A stretch of DNA of 64,000 nucleotides. It comes from Shuttleworthella satelles DSM 14600. Its GTDB lineage: Bacteria; Bacillota; Clostridia; Lachnospirales; Lachnospiraceae. The translations under genes and the position numbers were made by a program. Positions 43,386 through 52,526 of the stretch are shown here, piece after piece (position 1 is the stretch's first letter; every line of letters starts with the position of its first letter). Under the pieces are notes generated by a model, which saw only the letters and a program-made list of their open reading frames with translations, was not told the DNA's origin and did not search any database. Location of the stretch: the NCBI RefSeq assembly GCF_000160115.1, contig NZ_GG665866.1, forward strand, positions 1,042,825 to 1,106,824, in the 5' to 3' direction.

Positions 43386-43694
43386 TCAGCCATTGATCTT
43401 GTCGATCTTAACCTGCGTGAATGACTGTCTGTGACCGTTTTTCTTGTGGTAGCCGGTCTTTCTCTTGAACTTGTAGACAATCACCTTGCGAGCGCGTCCG
43501 TTGCGAACGACAGAGGCCTCCACGCTGGCGCCGTCAACTGTAGGACTGCCAACCTTTAGCCCGTCATTGCTGACTGCTAAAACCTGGTCGAAAGTCACCT
43601 TCTCGCCCTCCTCGGCACCGAGCTTCTCAATGCTGATGACGTCTCCCTCAGATACCTTGTACTGCTTACCACCGGTAGCAATAATTGCGTACAT
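43386..43694 (-). CDS. rplU: Ribosomal protein L21 (bL21)
   Basis: This 102-residue 50S protein has [19 protein letters not shown] at the start and [14 protein letters not shown] with KIDKI near the end, all standard. GAGGAGG precedes the ATG. It is the first gene of rplU-prp-rpmA, with a structured leader and its own promoter. Confidence 0.98.
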
Positions 43695-43887: not shown

Positions 43888-45879
43888 CTAACGGACAATC
43901 CGGTAGTAGATGCGGCTTGTCAGAAGGAAAATCAACAGGTAGACTAGGGCGAATATCCCTGTCACAATTCCAAGTCGAATCATGTAGTAGGTCATATTGC
44001 TCACGCCAAAGAGGATCAGAATGTTGGACATAATCTTGCCGGCCGCAAGGCAGTGAACGATTGCCACCGCAAGAGGGGCGAAGAAAAGCCATACGATCTG
44101 ACTGGCCGCGGTTCTGCGGATCAGAGCATCCGGGAGTCCCACCTGTTTCATGATCTGATACTTTTCGCGGTCCTCATAGGCCTCGTTGACCTGCTTGTAA
44201 TAGGTGACAAGAACCGTTCCGATCAAGAAAACCAGGCCGACCACAAGCCCCAGGAAGAGGAAGCCTCCGTTGAGGGAATAGACTTCATTTCTCGCCTCTG
44301 TTTCATTGATTGCCACAAAGTTATCGTGATTCATACTCTTAACTGCCCGGTTTAGAGCCTCGGATTGATCGGCTGCATTCCAGGCGTAATAGGAATTTGT
44401 AATTGTTCCCATCCCCATTTCGTCAGGCGCCTGCAGCAGGTCAGATACCTCCAGCATGGTTTTTTGATCCGGCAGAACCAAAAAGATATAGTCCACATTG
44501 AAGTTAGACGAAACCATGGTCTTTCCCTTGCTGAGCTGGTAGGTCTTATCCCCTATCTTCAAGCTCTTGATGTTTGACACGCTGTCTCTGTTACTATAGA
44601 TCAAAGCCTGTCCCTGACTGAGTTTGATATCAGTTCCAAAATACCGGTTATATTCGTCAAGACTTCCCAAAATGGCAAAGCCGGTCTTAAAGCCGTCTTT
44701 GGGATTCATCAGATCCTTCTCTTTCCTGGAAACATACTTTATCTCCTGACTGGAATATAAGACGGCACTTGTCAGCTGAGTAATGCTGATCCCGTCCTTG
44801 ACCTTCGTATAGGCTTCTGTCGTCTGGCGGGCTTTCTCCTCCACCTCGCCTGCCCATTGTTGAAGCTCATCCGTACTTGGAGACTGTTCCGTATTTTGAA
44901 TGGAGTAGAGCTCATAGTAGCGGTTATGCAGGATTCCATCTACCGTTTTCTCCATGTTGGAGTACATGACAAAGACCGTTGACAGGGTCAGAATGACCCC
45001 GCAGGCCATAATCGCCATCGAGGCAAGCCCAACCGCGTGAGATTTCATGCGGTAGAGAAGACCTGAAATGTTTAGAAAATTCCTGGCCTTATAGTAAGAC
45101 TTCCTCTTTCGACGAAACTTGAGATAGATCACAGAAAAAGAGATAAAGAGGCAATAGGTGGCCAGGGCAACCGCTAGAACAGCAAAGACGATTTTGCTTA
45201 TGGCGGATAAGAGCCCTTCTACATGCATGGCCTGATAATAGCCATAGCTTAAGGCAGCCAGACCGATAACCAGAAGCAGCCAGTTGGATCTCGGTTCCTT
45301 TTCACCCTTCTTCTCTCCTGTCAACAGGGCAAGAGGAGCCTTGGAGCGGATCTTGCTGCAGTTGATGACAAAGAGGACAAAAAAGAAGGCCAGCTCGAAT
45401 CCCGCCGTCATAAGAAATGCCTGCGCAGAGAATGGGTAGTTCATCAGCTTGACCCCGGAATCATGGAGCAGCTCATTGAGTCCGGCAAAGATCAGCTTGC
45501 CGAAGATGAAGCCCCCAATGGTGCTGATTATGGTCATAAGGGCAAAGAGAATCAAGAGCTCAATGAAGAGAATTCGGCGGATATGCCGTTTCTCCAGGCC
45601 CAGAATGGAATAGAGGGCCAGCTCCTGCTTCCTTCGACTCATGAGAAAGCGATTGGAATAGAGGACAAAAACACCGGCCAGAATCAAGATCAGCCAGGAC
45701 CCGTATTGAATGAAAGTGATCAGGTCCTTATGCCTGGTCAGAACATATTGATTGGACTGCAGGGACACCATGACATTGTAGAGAAGAAACATAATGCCGT
45801 TGGAAATGACAAAGGGGATATTGACCAGGCGGTTTGCCCTGATATTCTTGAGAGCGAAACGGGCTGCGATGGTAGTCAT
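43888..45879 (-). CDS. Bce-type ABC transporter permease (BceB-like, FtsX family)
   Basis: This 663-residue permease has about ten membrane helices and one large extracytoplasmic domain (about residues 320-530) between helices seven and eight. That layout is characteristic of antimicrobial-peptide sensing and resistance permeases. The N-terminal FALKNIRANRLVN and RRKQELALYSILGLEKRHI are FtsX-like blocks. It overlaps the ATPase gene by four bases. With the kinase and regulator upstream it forms a full peptide-antibiotic detoxification module. The specific drug cannot be told from sequence. Confidence 0.92.
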   Translation of the reverse strand: MTTIAARFALKNIRANRLVNIPFVISNGIMFLLYNVMVSLQSNQYVLTRHKDLITFIQYGSWLILILAGVFVLYSNRFLMSRRKQELALYSILGLEKRHIRRILFIELLILFALMTIISTIGGFIFGKLIFAGLNELLHDSGVKLMNYPFSAQAFLMTAGFELAFFFVLFVINCSKIRSKAPLALLTGEKKGEKEPRSNWLLLVIGLAALSYGYYQAMHVEGLLSAISKIVFAVLAVALATYCLFISFSVIYLKFRRKRKSYYKARNFLNISGLLYRMKSHAVGLASMAIMACGVILTLSTVFVMYSNMEKTVDGILHNRYYELYSIQNTEQSPSTDELQQWAGEVEEKARQTTEAYTKVKDGISITQLTSAVLYSSQEIKYVSRKEKDLMNPKDGFKTGFAILGSLDEYNRYFGTDIKLSQGQALIYSNRDSVSNIKSLKIGDKTYQLSKGKTMVSSNFNVDYIFLVLPDQKTMLEVSDLLQAPDEMGMGTITNSYYAWNAADQSEALNRAVKSMNHDNFVAINETEARNEVYSLNGGFLFLGLVVGLVFLIGTVLVTYYKQVNEAYEDREKYQIMKQVGLPDALIRRTAASQIVWLFFAPLAVAIVHCLAAGKIMSNILILFGVSNMTYYMIRLGIVTGIFALVYLLIFLLTSRIYYRIVR

Positions 45880-46631
45880 GCAAGCACCTTCTTTCTGAGG
45901 ACTGTCTGGGCCTGATGGATGCGCTCCATAAAGGCCTCCTGATCTTCCTCCCCCCGGTAGAGCTCATGGAAGACAATCCCATCCTTGATAAAGAGAACCC
46001 GCCTGGCGTAAGAAGCTGAGCGCAGGGAGTGGGTTACCATGAGGATGGTCTGAGCATTTTCATTGATTCTGGTGAAGAGTCTCATGATCGCGTCAGCAGA
46101 AGCGGAATCCAGGCTTCCGGTCGGCTCGTCCGCAAGGAGCAGGGCTGGCTTTGTAATGATCGCTCTTGCCGTGGCAATGCGCTGTTTCTGGCCGCCGGAG
46201 ATCTCATAGGGATATTTGTCTACAAAATCTCCGATCATGAGCTGATCCTGAATCTCCGCTAGGCGGCTTTTCATCTCCTCTGCCCTGACGCCTGAGAGAA
46301 CCAGGGGAAGATAGATATTGTCCCGGTTGGTAAACTGGTCCAGGAGGTTAAAGGTCTGGAAGACAAATCCGAGCTCATTGCGTCGGAAGGCGGTGATGTC
46401 CTTCTCCTTGAGATGGGCCAGATTCTGTCCCTCGAGGATAATACTGCCGGACGTGGGCTGGTCCAAGGTGGCAACCAGATTTAAAAGAGTCGTTTTCCCG
46501 GATCCGGACTCGCCCATAATCGCGATGAACTCGCCCTCGTCGACGGAGAAATTGACCCCCTTCAGGGCCTGGGTCTCGATGCCTCTGGACCGGTAGGTCT
46601 TCTTTACATCCTGCAACTCCAGTATTTTCAT
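45876..46631 (-). CDS. Bce-type ABC transporter ATP-binding protein (BceA-like)
   Basis: This 251-residue ATPase of the MacB/LolD group has Walker [10 protein letters not shown], the Q-loop [13 protein letters not shown], signature [10 protein letters not shown], Walker [14 protein letters not shown] and the H-loop VTHS. ATG 46631 has GAGGAGG upstream; the longer frame from 46664 is rejected. It powers the permease encoded next. A BceR-type operator lies about 150 nt upstream. Confidence 0.94.
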
Positions 46632-46729
46632 GGGATACCTCCTCTGATATCGTTTCAATCTCATTTTGCTCTGATGTGTGCGCTCAAAAATCAGAAGGAT
46701 CGTTTCGATCGATCATCCGATTCGCTATC

Positions 46730-46735
46730 ATCATA
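46730..46735 (-). promoter_or_regulatory. Possible -10 of the bceAB-like promoter
   Basis: TATGAT on the minus strand. No good -35 lies 16-18 nt upstream (ATGCCT or AATGCC). A poor -35 fits a promoter needing an activator such as the BceR-like regulator bound at 46780-46793. Confidence 0.4.
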
Positions 46736-46770
46736 GACCTATCCGGTCGGGCAGGCATTTATATAAAATA

Positions 46771-46802
46771 ACAGCTTCCTTACAGACCTGTAAGGAAGCT
46801 GT
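46771..46802 (-). terminator. Perfect 32-bp inverted repeat: terminator of the two-component operon
   Basis: The arms ACAGCTTCCTTACAG (46771-46785) and CTGTAAGGAAGCTGT (46788-46802) are perfect complements with a 2-nt centre. On the minus strand the stem is followed by TTATTTTATATAAA, so it can end the regulator-kinase transcript. The same repeat contains the operator described separately. Confidence 0.65.
46780..46793. promoter_or_regulatory. BceR-type operator TTACA-N4-TGTAA
   Basis: TTACA-GACC-TGTAA fits exactly the TNACA-N4-TGTAA motif described for regulators of Bce-type transporters in Firmicutes. It lies upstream of the bceA-like gene and about 45 nt above the likely -10, a sensible activator position. 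Confidence 0.7.
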
Positions 46803-46871
46803 GAAAATCCTCTCTTACCCGGCCAAATACCTGAAGAAATGATATGGGCAGCTTGTTTTTCTCTCACGAGG

Positions 46872-46959
46872 CGAAAGATAGATCCGAGCAAGGCAAAAGA
46901 TGGATCCGATCAAGACGAAAGGTGGATTCGATCCATGGAAAAGCTGGATTGAATCAGGG
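46872..46959 (-). repeat. Four degenerate 22-bp tandem repeats at the 3' end of the kinase gene
   Basis: The copies start at 46872, 46894, 46916 and 46938, with plus-strand consensus CGAAAGATGGATCCGATCAAGG. The copy at 46938-46959 includes the kinase stop codon (46954-46956), so the array begins at the gene end. Confidence 0.85.
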
Positions 46960-47868
46960 AAAGAGCACTGTAAAACAGCTCCCCTCTCCCACTTTGGATT
47001 CGACAGCAATTTTAAGCGATAATTTCCTGGCAATCGTATCTACAAGAAAGAGTCCCAGACCGGAGGACTTATCTGTTGCGCGTCCGTTAAAACCGGAATA
47101 GCCCCTGTCGAAGATTTTGGGCAGGTCCTGCGCGGGAATCCCGGCGCCGGTGTCTTCAACCCGCAAGGCTTTCTTGCCCAGATCATAGCAAATCAAGATC
47201 TTTCCCCCGCGCGTGTACTTGACCGCGTTGGAGATGAGCTGTTCCACAAGAACAGACAAACCGCGGGCATCGGACAGAACATAAGCGGACCTGGGAATGT
47301 CAATCTCAATCCGATCGTCGTTTTCCACGAAAAGGAGAGAGTAACGCTTTAAAATCTCTGTCACAAGCGGCTTCAGCTTCACCCTGGTCAGATCCATGTC
47401 ATTGGAATCTTGCATAAGCTTCAGATAGGACATGGCCATATTGGCGTATCCGTTGATCTCCATCAGGCGGGATTTGATTCGAATGGCGTTGCTGTCACAG
47501 GACATAGAGTCGGATTCCAGAAGCAGGGAGGCTGCTGTAATCGGCGTCTTCATCTGGTGCATCCAGAGAAGGAAATAGTCTTCCAGATCTTTCTGCCTCT
47601 GCAGGGTCTCCTCTTCCAATTGACGCTTTTCTTTCATAATCCTCTCCAGTTCCCTGCTCAAGTCCGTCCGGCGCCTGATATGATAGCTGGCAAAGACAAG
47701 GTAAATCAGCCAGGAGAAGACAATAATCTGTACGCAGAGAATCATATAAGAGTTCTCCATTCCGCCAAGCATAGAAACGGTGGCAAGGAGAATGACAACC
47801 AAAAGCAAGCTTGTCGTGACCGGAAGAATTTCACGGAGAAAATCGAGGATTTCTTTTTTGTCAGGCAT
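46954..47868 (-). CDS. Bce-type sensor histidine kinase (BceS-like, intramembrane-sensing)
   Basis: This 304-residue kinase has two N-terminal membrane helices separated by only a few residues, so it has no sensing domain of its own. A short coiled linker follows. The H-box LLWMHQMKTPI has His104. The N-box (LISNAVKYT), G1 (VEDTGAGIP) and G2 (SSGLGLFLV) follow. In such systems the kinase senses through the BceAB-like transporter. It starts on the last base of the regulator gene. Confidence 0.94.
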   Translation of the reverse strand: MPDKKEILDFLREILPVTTSLLLVVILLATVSMLGGMENSYMILCVQIIVFSWLIYLVFASYHIRRRTDLSRELERIMKEKRQLEEETLQRQKDLEDYFLLWMHQMKTPITAASLLLESDSMSCDSNAIRIKSRLMEINGYANMAMSYLKLMQDSNDMDLTRVKLKPLVTEILKRYSLLFVENDDRIEIDIPRSAYVLSDARGLSVLVEQLISNAVKYTRGGKILICYDLGKKALRVEDTGAGIPAQDLPKIFDRGYSGFNGRATDKSSGLGLFLVDTIARKLSLKIAVESKVGEGSCFTVLFP

Positions 47869-48545
47869 TATGTTTCCTCCGACAGGCAGTAGCCGATTCC
47901 CTTTTTGGTTTCGATCAGATTTTCCAGGCCGATTTCTCTTAATTTTTTGCGAAGTCTGGAGATGTTGACCGCCAGAGTGTTGTCGTCAATAAAGTTCTCG
48001 CTCTGCCAGCAGTGGTCGATCAGGGCTTCCCGGCTGATCACCTTTCCCCGGCCGACAAAGAGGGGTTCTAAGATCAAAAGCTCTGTCCGGGTCAGATCCA
48101 GCTGTCGATCCCGAAAGTAAATCGCGGTCTTGGCAAGGTCCAGTTTCACCCCATTCCAGACGAGCTCATTGGCATTCTGCCCGAACTCGTAGGATCGACG
48201 GAGAAGGGCGTCGATCTTGGCTCGCACCACTTCTAGGGAGACCGGCTTGGTCACATAGTCGTCCGCCCCCATCTGCATGCCCTGGATCAGATCCATATCA
48301 TCAGACTTAGAGCTCAGAATTAATATGGGCAGAGTCGAGAAGGCGCGGATCTGCTGACACCAGTAGAAACCGTTATAAGAGGGGAGCACGACATCCATGA
48401 TGACCAGATCCGGCGCCGCTTCCCTGACCTCCTGGGCAACCCTGGTGAAATCGCGGACACATGTCACCTTATGGCCCCAGCTGGTCAGATATTCTTCCAG
48501 AGACTTAGCGATGATCTCATCGTCCTCGACAAGAAATAAATTCAT
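47868..48545 (-). CDS. Bce-type response regulator (OmpR family, BceR-like)
   Basis: This 225-residue regulator has receiver acid residues EDD (7-9), phosphoacceptor Asp51 (VIMDVVLPSYNGF) and Lys in TKPVSLEVV. The C-terminal winged helix is of OmpR type (LTRTELLILEPLF, DDNTLAVNISRLRKKL). It likely activates the bceAB-like genes through the TTACA-N4-TGTAA site. GGAAGG lies 8-13 nt before the ATG. The module sits inside the conserved RNase G-rplU interval. Confidence 0.95.
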   Translation of the reverse strand: MNLFLVEDDEIIAKSLEEYLTSWGHKVTCVRDFTRVAQEVREAAPDLVIMDVVLPSYNGFYWCQQIRAFSTLPILILSSKSDDMDLIQGMQMGADDYVTKPVSLEVVRAKIDALLRRSYEFGQNANELVWNGVKLDLAKTAIYFRDRQLDLTRTELLILEPLFVGRGKVISREALIDHCWQSENFIDDNTLAVNISRLRKKLREIGLENLIETKKGIGYCLSEET

Positions 48546-48707: not shown

Positions 48708-49823
48708 TTATGACGAGAGGATCTGCTTTAATGATGCGTATTTCTTCTGCCTGGTTATCTCCACCAAGCCCAAAGCGGTGACGTCAACCAGACTCACCCC
48801 CTGGGGGTCCCTCTTGCAGCAGGAGGACAAATGTTCCATCACCCGGGTCAGATCTCTCTTATCTCTCATATTGATAAAATCAATGACGATATTGCCCCCG
48901 CAGGGAAGCCAGACAGTTCTTGAACTGATTTCTTTCATCAGTCGGGTCAGATTGCGCAGCTGATAGAGGGGGTATTCGTCCCGGTAGGCGTGAAAGAGGG
49001 GAGCATAGTCTGCCAGTCGACTGTCGGCTCGCCTGGTCCATGAACATCCTTTTGATCCCTGTGTGTGAGAGCCATTGTTTCTTTCTCCCGCAAAGGAGGC
49101 AATCACCTCCTCTAAATCACTGGTGATGGACGCGATCTGCCCGGCGGGATAGGTCATCAGCCGCTCCATCCAAAGAGGCTGACCAGGCTGAAAGACCGTA
49201 AAAAGCGCCTGCTGACCGATGGTCGCCTGAAAGTCCTCCATTTGCTCAACGAGAGCTTCGACCTGCCCGGACAACTCCTCCTCTCCTAAAGAGGCTGCGG
49301 ACGTCCGCAAAGTCAGATGATAGTTTTCCCCCTGGCAGGCTGACAGAAAATCTCTGAGACGTCTTCGGTCCTGTCCGCTGATCTTCCTGGAGATACCGGA
49401 TTCTCCCGATCCCAAATGCGCAATGACGTCGGCGGATTTAAAGACGATATCACTGCTCCCTATGGCGTCCTTGCTCTTGATGGGGTCGGCGACAATCTGC
49501 AGGAGGATTTGGTCACCCCCGTGAATCCCCTCGGATTTGGACTGTCTGCGCACATAATTGAGTTCATCCGGACTCTTCACGGGGAGAAAGACCTTTTTCT
49601 GGTCTGCGATATCGACAAAGGCTGCATGCAGGGAGGGCAGATATTTTTGAATCCGTCCAATGTGAATCTGTCCGACCATGCTGGGTCTGGCCAGGTTCTC
49701 CACCTGCAGCTCAATCGCCTGTCCGTCCCCGGTCCGAACAAGAAAAAGCCCGATCTCTATGTCCTTCCAGGGCATCCGGGTAATGCATATCTCAAGTTGT
49801 TCCTGCTCTGAAATTTCCGGCAT
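48708..49823 (-). CDS. Ribonuclease E/G family protein with deleted catalytic motif
   Basis: This 371-residue protein belongs to the Rne/Rng family. The S1-like part is clear (VGQIHIGRIQKYLPSLHAAF), as are SRKISGQDRRRLR and the C-terminal LGLVEITRQK. The catalytic DNase I-like part normally reads VWLKSGG-(I/L)VI..TEA...IDVN...GG-IIVIDFIDM. Here VWLPCGG (to residue 310) runs directly into NIVIDFINM (311 on). About 40-45 residues with the first metal-binding Asp and the TEA/DVN motif are gone, while the second Asp (D315) remains. The frame is continuous, so this is an in-frame deletion. The protein is probably impaired as a nuclease but may still bind RNA. Context (radical SAM, DUF2344, RNase G, L21) is standard. 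Confidence 0.88.
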   Translation of the reverse strand: MPEISEQEQLEICITRMPWKDIEIGLFLVRTGDGQAIELQVENLARPSMVGQIHIGRIQKYLPSLHAAFVDIADQKKVFLPVKSPDELNYVRRQSKSEGIHGGDQILLQIVADPIKSKDAIGSSDIVFKSADVIAHLGSGESGISRKISGQDRRRLRDFLSACQGENYHLTLRTSAASLGEEELSGQVEALVEQMEDFQATIGQQALFTVFQPGQPLWMERLMTYPAGQIASITSDLEEVIASFAGERNNGSHTQGSKGCSWTRRADSRLADYAPLFHAYRDEYPLYQLRNLTRLMKEISSRTVWLPCGGNIVIDFINMRDKRDLTRVMEHLSSCCKRDPQGVSLVDVTALGLVEITRQKKYASLKQILSS

Positions 49824-49831
49824 CCTGTATC

Positions 49832-49896
49832 CTCATCAAGTTTCCCATCAAATCCCCATCAGATCCTTATCAGATCCCCATCAAAGCCTTATCAGA
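49832..49896 (-). repeat. Five to six degenerate 11-bp repeats between DUF2344 and RNase E/G genes
   Basis: On the minus strand the unit is GATNNGGATCT (variants GATAAGGCTTT, GATGGGGATCT, GATAAGGATCT, GATGGGGATTT, GATGGGAAACTT). The array begins soon after the DUF2344 stop and ends at the RNase E/G ribosome site, so several units look like Shine-Dalgarno sequences. Confidence 0.7.
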
Positions 49897-49909
49897 TTAG
49901 ACACGCCAA

Positions 49910-50668
49910 TCAAAAAATTCCCTCCCCTACATCCTCCAGGGAGACAAATTGTCCATCCACCCTGGTGAACATATCCTCCCGGTAGACGCGGATAGCATAT
50001 TCCTGAGGATCCAGCCCCAGGAAGCGATGGAAATGTTCCATGACCAGATCCGGCTTGATATTATCCGTCGAACCGGAAGACAGCATGATGCGGTGGCAGA
50101 CAGGGCCGCATTCTTCGTCCGCTGGATCCGCCGGACAAGCCTGATTTCCTGGGATAAAAGGCTCAATCTCCCAGCGGTAGATCAGGGGCTTGAGATCAAG
50201 CGAGCGCTCGGATTTTTTGGTCTTCTTGACAATTGTAATATGTTCTGCCCGATCATAGAAGTCCTCCCTGGCATCGATCAGCTCCCTCAGCTGAAGAGGC
50301 GCCTTGCCCCTGCGATAGGTCAGGCGGTAGCTGGAGGCCTCTACAGACGCCATGGCGTTTTTCGCGTTCTCGGGCAGCCGGCGAAGAGAATGAATCACCA
50401 TCCCGTCCACCATAGTCTCCCCAAGCGCCTTCATAGCGGAAAGCCCATCCAGACCCTCTTCCGTCTCAATATCCATGTACTCCCCGTCGGAAGTAATGCC
50501 GAGGCCCAGGGGCTCCGCAAAGGACATAATGGGATGGGGATGGTAGCCCTGAGAGAACTTCATGGGAATGCGGGCCCTTCGCATGGCCTTCTGGAAATAG
50601 CGCATGATATCCAGGTGCCCGATGTATTTCATGGCTCCATGTTTACCGAAGCGGATTCTGATTTTCAA
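49910..50668 (-). CDS. Radical-SAM-associated DUF2344 protein (TIGR03936 type)
   Basis: This 252-residue protein starts MKIRIRFGKHGAMKYIGHLD and has FSQGYHPHPIMSFAEPLGLG, both hallmarks of the DUF2344 partner of the neighbouring radical SAM protein. Its function is unknown; the constant linkage to RNase G and ribosomal protein genes suggests RNA or ribosome maturation. It overlaps the radical SAM gene by 26 nt. Confidence 0.9.
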   Translation of the reverse strand: MKIRIRFGKHGAMKYIGHLDIMRYFQKAMRRARIPMKFSQGYHPHPIMSFAEPLGLGITSDGEYMDIETEEGLDGLSAMKALGETMVDGMVIHSLRRLPENAKNAMASVEASSYRLTYRRGKAPLQLRELIDAREDFYDRAEHITIVKKTKKSERSLDLKPLIYRWEIEPFIPGNQACPADPADEECGPVCHRIMLSSGSTDNIKPDLVMEHFHRFLGLDPQEYAIRVYREDMFTRVDGQFVSLEDVGEGIF

Positions 50669-52526
50669 AGCACACCCCTCCCCCCATCGATCTCATACCG
50701 CAGCCGGAGCACTGGTCCCTGCAGTTTGGCGTCAGTTTACCCGCCATGGCATTCTTCCACTCCCGCTCCAAAAAGGGACGGGTCAGGCCGCAGTCGATGA
50801 AGTCCCAGGGGAAGATTTCGTCGAGGGGGCGCTGACGATAGGCATAGAAATCAGCGGAAATACCGAATCTGTCGAAGGCCTCCTGCCAGACCTCATCGTT
50901 AAAGTACTCGCTCCAGGCATCGTAGATCTGGCCCTTTTGGGTATAGGCCCAGAGAATGGCATCGGCCACCTTGCGGTCCCCTCTGGCGAAAATCCCCTCT
51001 AATACGGAGATCTGGGGATGATGCCACTCATAGTGCAGGCTCTTGCGATTGAGCTGCTCGTGCATGGTGTCTTTGACCAGCCTGGCCCTTCGGATGTAGT
51101 CCTCCGGCGGATGCATGGGGGCCCACTGAAAGGGAGTGAATGGCTTTGGGACGAAGAAAGATGTGGACATGGTGATCTGCGCTCTTCCATTTCTCTGGTC
51201 TTTGGGGATCTCTTCAAAGTAGAGGGCTGCCAGATCGTTGCCCAGCCGGGGAATGGCCATAATGTCCTCATCAGTCTCCGTGGGCAGGCCCAGCATGAAG
51301 TAAAGCTTGAGCTTGTTCCAGCCCCCGTGAAAGGCCTCTTTTGCCCCCGACATAATTTCTTCCAGGCTGATTCCCTTGTTGATGACATCCCGCATTCGCT
51401 GGGAACCGGCTTCCGGGGCAAAGGTCACAGAGGACTTGCGGACATCTTGAATCTTTGACATGACGTCTAAGGAGAAGGCGTCAATGCGGAGGGAGGGCAG
51501 GGAGATATTGATCTTCTCCCGGTCGCATTTGTCAATCAGATAGTCCAGAAAATCGGACAGGCCCCGATAATCGGAGGAGGACAGAGAGGACAGAGAAATC
51601 TCGTCATAGCCGGAGGAGGAAAGCATCTCCTCCACATAGGATTTCAGCGTCGCAAGGCTCTTCTCCCTGGTCGGTCGATAGACCATGCCGGCCTGGCAGA
51701 AACGGCAGCCGCGGATGCAGCCCCGCATAATCTCAATGACCACACGGTCCTGCACCGAGCGGACAAAGGGGACGATCGGGTGAACCGGATACGTCGCGTG
51801 GTCCATGTCCATCATGACCTGCCTGCGCACCCGACTTGGAATGTCATCGTATTTGATTTCCCAGTCCTCAAGCCTGCCGTCCTCCTGATAGACCGGCGTA
51901 AAGAAGGCAGGAACATAGACCCCGGGAAATTTGGCCGCCTCATGCAAAAAGTCCTCCCGGCTGTAGACTCCCTCCTTTTTCATGCGCTCATAGAGGCGGA
52001 CGACGTCAACATTGTTGACCTCCCCTTCTCCCAGGAAGAACATGTCAAAAAAAGGGGCGATGGGCTCCGGATTATAGGTGCAGGGGCCGCCTCCGACGAC
52101 GATGGGATCTTCCTCGCCGCGGTCTTTAGCCAAAAGGGGAATCTGACTCAAATCCAGGATCTGCAGGATGTTGGTGTAACACATCTCATACTGGATGGTG
52201 ATGCCCAGGAAGTCCTTGTCCCTGACTGCTGTCTGGGTCTCTAAGGTAAAGAGGGGAATATTCCTCTCCTTCATGATCTTATGTAAATCCGGCCAGGGGG
52301 AGTAGAGGCGCTCGCAGTAGATCCCCTCCTCCCTGTTGTACATATCATACAGAATCTGAATGCCCTGGTGGGACATTCCCACCTCGTAGACGTCAGGGAA
52401 GCACATGACAAAGGAGACAGCGACCTCAGAGGGATCCTTCATGACGCTGTTTAATTCATTGCCGATATAGCGGGCGGGCTTATCCACCTGCATCAAAATA
52501 TCCTCTGAGAGAGCAAGTTTTCTCAT
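50643..52526 (-). CDS. Radical SAM protein, TIGR03960 type (YgiQ-like B12-binding group)
   Basis: This 627-residue protein has an N-terminal cobalamin-binding-like region (FPDVYEVGMSHQGIQILY). The iron-sulphur motif is RGCIRGCRFCQAG (C-x3-C-x2-C, about residues 270-280). A C-terminal cysteine cluster (CRDQCSGCGMR) follows. The substrate is unknown. The 3' end overlaps DUF2344 and the 5' end overlaps hisI by four bases. Confidence 0.9.
   Translation of the reverse strand: MRKLALSEDILMQVDKPARYIGNELNSVMKDPSEVAVSFVMCFPDVYEVGMSHQGIQILYDMYNREEGIYCERLYSPWPDLHKIMKERNIPLFTLETQTAVRDKDFLGITIQYEMCYTNILQILDLSQIPLLAKDRGEEDPIVVGGGPCTYNPEPIAPFFDMFFLGEGEVNNVDVVRLYERMKKEGVYSREDFLHEAAKFPGVYVPAFFTPVYQEDGRLEDWEIKYDDIPSRVRRQVMMDMDHATYPVHPIVPFVRSVQDRVVIEIMRGCIRGCRFCQAGMVYRPTREKSLATLKSYVEEMLSSSGYDEISLSSLSSSDYRGLSDFLDYLIDKCDREKINISLPSLRIDAFSLDVMSKIQDVRKSSVTFAPEAGSQRMRDVINKGISLEEIMSGAKEAFHGGWNKLKLYFMLGLPTETDEDIMAIPRLGNDLAALYFEEIPKDQRNGRAQITMSTSFFVPKPFTPFQWAPMHPPEDYIRRARLVKDTMHEQLNRKSLHYEWHHPQISVLEGIFARGDRKVADAILWAYTQKGQIYDAWSEYFNDEVWQEAFDRFGISADFYAYRQRPLDEIFPWDFIDCGLTRPFLEREWKNAMAGKLTPNCRDQCSGCGMRSMGGGVCFENQNPLR

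Follow-up and report, generated by a model that had tools for sequence, protein, structure and literature searches.

The window, a stretch of 64,000 nucleotides from Shuttleworthella satelles DSM 14600, carries on its minus strand an rng gene for a 371-residue homologue of RNase E/G (Table 1), which starts with ATG and has a GAGG 7 bases before it. PF10150 (RNase_E_G) is the sole Pfam model to reach its cut-off in the protein (102.9 bits vs. 25.5), and a phmmer search of the PDB returned E. coli RNase E structures with a best E-value of 8e-17. The scores stay below the curated cut-offs of both TIGR00757, the Rne/Rng ribonuclease model (121.5 bits vs. 325.95), and NF008689, the RNase G equivalog (101.3 bits vs. 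594). SRKI (with S145 and K147), K118 and the family C-terminus are all present; the Pfam match and the alignment thus bear out an earlier sequence-only reading of this DNA, which had recognized an RNase E/G protein with an S1-like region, SRKI, D315 and the C-terminus of the family. The protein lacks the zinc-type motif C-[PS]-x-C-x-G, but a scan of the 92 locus proteins, counting duplicates, found that motif in no more than 6 of them. Codon usage in the frame scores 0.082, at the low end of the range of eight nearby genes (0.072 to 0.175), while the other frames score about -0.13.

Upstream of rng lie genes for a radical SAM-associated protein (TIGR03936) and a B12-binding radical SAM protein (TIGR03960), and about 5 kb downstream lies rplU. 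Of the 77 stretches fetched from relatives, 29 also have the gene for L21 downstream of rng and in the same orientation, in 26 cases within 752 nt; the other 48 stretches are short and decide nothing on this point. Between rng and rplU, window positions 43888-48545 encode a response regulator, a sensor kinase, an ABC ATPase and a 663-residue protein; the last matched no NCBIfam model at 1e-10 and is likely, judging by inference, to be a permease. By eye, the gap between the TIGR03936 gene and rng (49830-49900) contains short near-repeats of the type CCCATCAGATCC/TTATCAGATC.

Table 1. Features of the rng locus: feature, window position, strand, and evidence or remarks
RNase E/G homologue, 371 aa, without TEA/IDVN catalytic segment	48708..49823	-	ORF; PF10150; PDB RNase E matches
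S1-like region, residues 33-118	49470..49727	-	boundaries approximate, transferred from E. coli numbering; Foldseek, block pLDDT 62-88
5'-sensor region, residues 119-214 (approximate)	49182..49469	-	Foldseek to 4oxp and RNase W 8rza
R173-T174, equivalent of 5'-sensor R169-T170, retained	49302..49307	-	alignment; roles of R169/T170 from PMC2631609
D315, equivalent of E. coli RNase E D346, retained	48879..48881	-	column D in 74/74 relatives; matches RNase E IVIDFIDM strand
Remainder of DNase I-like subdomain, residues 312-371	48711..48890	-	low model confidence
Deletion junction, codons 310 (G) / 311 (N)	48891..48896	-	relative alignment, gap length, codon coordinates
TIGR03936 radical SAM-associated protein, upstream neighbour, TTG start	49910..50668	-	197.7 bits vs. 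cut-off 71.9
TIGR03960 B12-binding radical SAM protein, upstream neighbour	50643..52526	-	1016.7 bits vs. cut-off 462.3
Ribosomal protein L21 (rplU), about 5 kb downstream of rng	43386..43694	-	PF00829 142.2 bits; ORF

In a profile search of the genome, PF10150 matches rng as two separate stretches, model positions 14-171 and 218-269 of 270, so that positions 172-217 are missing. We aligned the protein with its relatives; of 92 locus proteins, 12 were left out beforehand (three copies of the window gene, the fragments L088 and L092, and seven repeat fetches), and the remaining 80 rows include 74 usable relatives after exclusion of L087, L069 and L072 (broken or truncated) and of the repeats L067, L068 and L071. 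The alignment places the break between VWLPCGG and (N)IVIDFINM, with a computed junction (48896-48891) where it had been expected from the letters, near 48885-48900. The stretch bridged by this break is 52 residues long in 57 of the 74 relatives, 53 in eight, and 48-51 or 55 in the other nine, somewhat more than the 40-45 residues first estimated. In the relatives it carries T-E-A, I-D-V-N, N-x-E-A-A and R-N-x-S-G, and the counterparts of D303 and N305 of the E. coli enzyme lie within it. The columns that 80% or more of the 74 relatives conserve divide sharply at this boundary: none of the 23 inside the gap is kept, vs. 32 of the 40 outside it (relatives, 22-40, median 37, with nine keeping fewer than 32), and within residues 312-371 the count is 12 of 13. 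DVN, DIN or DVD is found in all 80 aligned rows (77 distinct genes), aligned at the gap of the window protein; neither the motif scan nor the alignment found a TEA/DVN motif elsewhere in the 371 residues, the finding that would have spoken against a loss. The proposal of an in-frame deletion that removes the first metal-ligand Asp is supported. The protein otherwise resembles the short Clostridia-type RNase G of the RNase E/G family (PF10150, TIGR00757) in its S1-like, 5'-sensor and RNase H-like parts, its C-terminal strands, its D346 equivalent and its position downstream of TIGR03960 and TIGR03936 genes; it differs in lacking the approximately 52 residues that hold the D303 and N305 equivalents. 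These data suggest a deletion of ~156 bp, in frame, within the only RNase E/G gene found in the genome, which would have joined the opening strand of the DNase I-like subdomain directly to the strand bearing the second metal-ligand Asp. The other Asp that binds the catalytic Mg, D303 in E. coli, and the supporting N305 would have been lost with it.

The catalytic magnesium of E. coli RNase E has D303 and D346 as ligands, supported by N305, and each of these residues is described as required in mutation studies (PMC2631609). The D303C and D346C variants, single or combined, are reported not to sustain viability, and the D303N/D346N enzyme is inactive, with its substrate RNA I remaining stable (PMC12399333). 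D315, the D346 equivalent, is the only metal-ligand Asp left in the window protein. Having lost the equivalents of D303 and N305 along with the residues that connect the two strands, the product is predicted to be non-cleaving; by analogy with the E. coli mutants, it probably should not cut RNA. The D303N/D346N null mutant offers the closest parallel in that metal ligands are lost while the RNA-binding parts are kept (PMC12399333); however, it is a full-length laboratory protein, whereas the window gene is natural and lacks the strand together with the stretch behind it.

The window protein and an intact relative, L034, were modelled from the same four sequences, an alignment depth of only four. 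The window model (mean pLDDT 66.7, pTM 0.54) is best over residues 51-200, where block means of 72-88 cover the S1 and 5'-sensor regions, and drops to low block values of 34-59 over residues 301-360, in what is left of the DNase I subdomain. The L034 model, poorer overall (mean pLDDT 52.1, pTM 0.35), shows the reverse pattern, with 60-84 over residues 271-370, 37-40 in its last residues and most of the sensor region under 50; we read the contrast in model confidence between the two proteins as a hint. That RNA might still be cleaved through a rebuilt metal site, formed by D315 and other acidic residues, appears very improbable: D315 and the strand after it are retained, but E. coli RNase E needs both Asp ligands, which by analogy argues against such a site, and the fused subdomain is the part predicted at low confidence, the comparison with intact L034 adding a hint only.

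Foldseek searches with the window model, itself built from four sequences, rank E. coli RNase E first; next come a Caulobacter RNase E fragment that comprises the S1 and 5'-sensor domains (4oxp, E 3.3e-10) and RNase W (8rza, E 1.8e-7). The protein thus appears, from this four-sequence model, to contain the RNase E-like S1 plus 5'-sensor module that RNase W also has. In RNase W/FAU-1, this archaeal module is fused to DUF402, in which the RNase site is located (PMC11602121); the window protein shares the RNase E-type module without a working DNase I-type site, but a Pfam scan detects in it no C-terminal DUF402 catalytic domain.

To examine how the protein has diverged, we compared it with the neighbouring TIGR03936 protein in 67 relatives, leaving out those without a TIGR03936 ORF longer than 220 residues in the fetched stretch. 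Identity of the RNase E/G homologue to its relatives is 6.8 points below that predicted from TIGR03936, equal with L085 as the lowest of 68; judged from these identities, the homologue as a whole evolves fast. The divergence is uneven along the chain. For the S1 region and for residues 301-371, 9 and 10 of the 74 relatives, respectively, have lower values, which puts both in the lower normal range. The 5' sensor and the RNase H-like part have diverged strongly, with a single relative lower in each case (of 66 and of 74, respectively). Identity in the C-terminal remainder is slightly below the mean of the relatives (0.380 vs. 0.417), and the ratio of identity over residues 312-371 to that over residues 33-300 is exceeded by only one of the 74 (regression z 1.6). 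Since the catalytic remainder, expected to drift first after an old loss, is relatively well kept, this ratio of C- to N-terminal identity, a single indirect statistic, points to a probably recent deletion. Alternatively, the remainder could have stayed well kept under present-day constraint through a structural role, such as a dimer interface.

These results also bear on an alternative reading, that the protein is kept as a non-nucleolytic RNA-binding factor whose S1 and 5'-sensor modules bind 5'-monophosphorylated RNA and which regulates other RNases, competes with them or serves as their adaptor. Retention of the 5'-sensor Arg-Thr pair, S145/K147 and K118 fits this proposal, as do the unexceptional divergence of the S1 region, the confident prediction of residues 51-200 with its matches to RNase E S1/5'-sensor structures and RNase W, and an open frame with near-normal codon usage; there is also a precedent in archaeal RNase W, whose RNase G/E-like half is reported to serve a catalytic domain of another kind as its regulatory module (PMC11602121). 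On the other hand, selection for 5'-end sensing alone predicts the reverse of the divergence observed, in which the 5'-sensor and RNase H-like regions have changed most and the catalytic remainder is better kept than expected; moreover, the protein has gained no added domain of the RNase W kind, and no second genome with the deleted form appeared in the family sample. On balance, we consider retention as an RNA-binding factor unlikely, and less likely still the specific scenario in which loss of the catalytic strand left a non-cutting 5'-end RNA sensor that was selected in this lineage as a regulator of decay by RNase Y and RNase J. Searches of titles and the beginnings of abstracts in the open-licence literature returned no report of a non-catalytic RNase E/G in clostridia.

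We then considered how widely the deleted form occurs. The host assembly consists of 5 contigs and is 97.4% complete; a PF10150 search of it found no second RNase E/G copy, full-length or otherwise, and a 68-column profile of the catalytic segment found the missing piece nowhere else in it, as a split or trans-encoded gene would require. Three hits that carry names, an Eubacteriales MAG, a Candidatus Fusicatenibacter and [Clostridium] symbiosum, would place the host in or close to Lachnospiraceae. Among 397 genomes sampled from the same bacterial family, 336 have PF10150 and 334 have the segment by the 68-column profile. Comparison of the two lists by eye leaves only the host genome and G371, in which the contig stops within the ORF, with PF10150 and no segment. 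We opened 22 genomes, namely 18 with low-scoring, split or truncated matches and the near relatives G386, G073, G249 and G327; fourteen more, with best E-values of 1e-52 to 1e-59, were left unopened, and all 14 have the segment by profile. The copies in G232 and G371 are cut by contig ends, and that in G347 contains unreadable bases. By the alignment and both profiles, no relative in the family sample was seen to share the junction, and no other untruncated copy without the segment was seen among the 336 genomes. The sequence-only observation is thus borne out, and the deleted form is unique within the 397-genome sample, in which the host is the only member of its genus.

Two points would fit an artefact of assembly or sequencing, with a full-length gene in the living strain: the deletion occurs in a single genome, assembled in 5 contigs at 97.4% completeness, and the catalytic remainder is conserved within the range of active relatives. 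Such an error is rather improbable: a loss of ~156 bp that keeps both the frame and the strand spacing, without a long flanking repeat, would be unlike the usual base-calling or repeat-collapse error, and no contig end comes closer than 14 kb to the gene, on a contig of more than 1.1 Mb.

The sequence-only reading had considered it plausible that the deletion arose by recombination between flanking strands with similar codons. Spacing in the fused strand does match that of each parental strand (G-G/A-x4-E/D/Q and S/G-G-x4-D in examples), as an exchange between them would give. Comparison of the two 21-nt strands across the 74 relatives shows 46% identity, vs. 28% for in-frame controls at the same spacing; the longest run that they share averages 3.4 nt, vs. 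2.25. The similarity is weak; strong microhomology at the junction was not seen, since a run of 9 nt is reached in none of the 74 relatives, and strand homology at this level is too little to show recombination.

An RNase E/G may well be expendable in this host. No RNase E/G match was detected in 61 of the 397 family genomes, or in 39 of the 320 more complete ones. The host genome itself has a match to the RNase Y model (718.4 bits vs. a cut-off of 454.35) and a TIGR00649 protein (618.7 bits vs. 400; printed as MG423), which we take to be RNase J. Because both are present, and RNase E/G goes undetected in those 61 genomes, its loss would probably be tolerated, with RNase Y and RNase J carrying the load of RNA decay. 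A review describes Firmicutes and other groups as apparently living without RNase E/G by means of RNase Y and/or RNases J1/J2 (PMC3071783).

The explanation that we favor, and hold to be probable, is a catalytically dead protein that arose by a fairly recent in-frame deletion in a host where the enzyme is dispensable; the homologue is most likely being lost from the genome. Several features count against decay: the frame is open over 371 codons, codon usage is in the range of nearby genes, GAGG is present, and 32 of 40 positions beyond the gap are kept, a number also seen among relatives with the full motif. There is thus no clear sign of decay beyond the deletion. The intact frame had been taken earlier to suggest a retained function, which need not follow, since a recent deletion would also leave the frame intact and the well-kept catalytic remainder points to just that. 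If expressed, the protein would be a natural catalytic-null RNase E/G with its RNA-binding parts and could separate the sensing role of the family from its cutting role; if decaying, the gene would offer a snapshot of RNase E/G loss in clostridial lineages with RNase Y and RNase J.

Other copies in the family depart from the full-length form in different ways. In G221 (L087/L089), RNase E/G is split into three ORFs of 76, 292 and 97 residues, with one break within the catalytic segment, possibly a second case of ongoing loss or else a product of sequencing errors. Eight relatives from seven genera (L077, L079, L080, L081, L082, L083, L085 and L086), all of them from the 18 low-scoring, split or truncated matches opened, show the opposite loss, of 57-74 residues of the 5'-sensor region, in which the Arg-Thr pair is gone and the TEA/IDVN catalytic segment is kept. 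G314 has two complete RNase E/G genes on different contigs, in an assembly whose contamination is given as 2.
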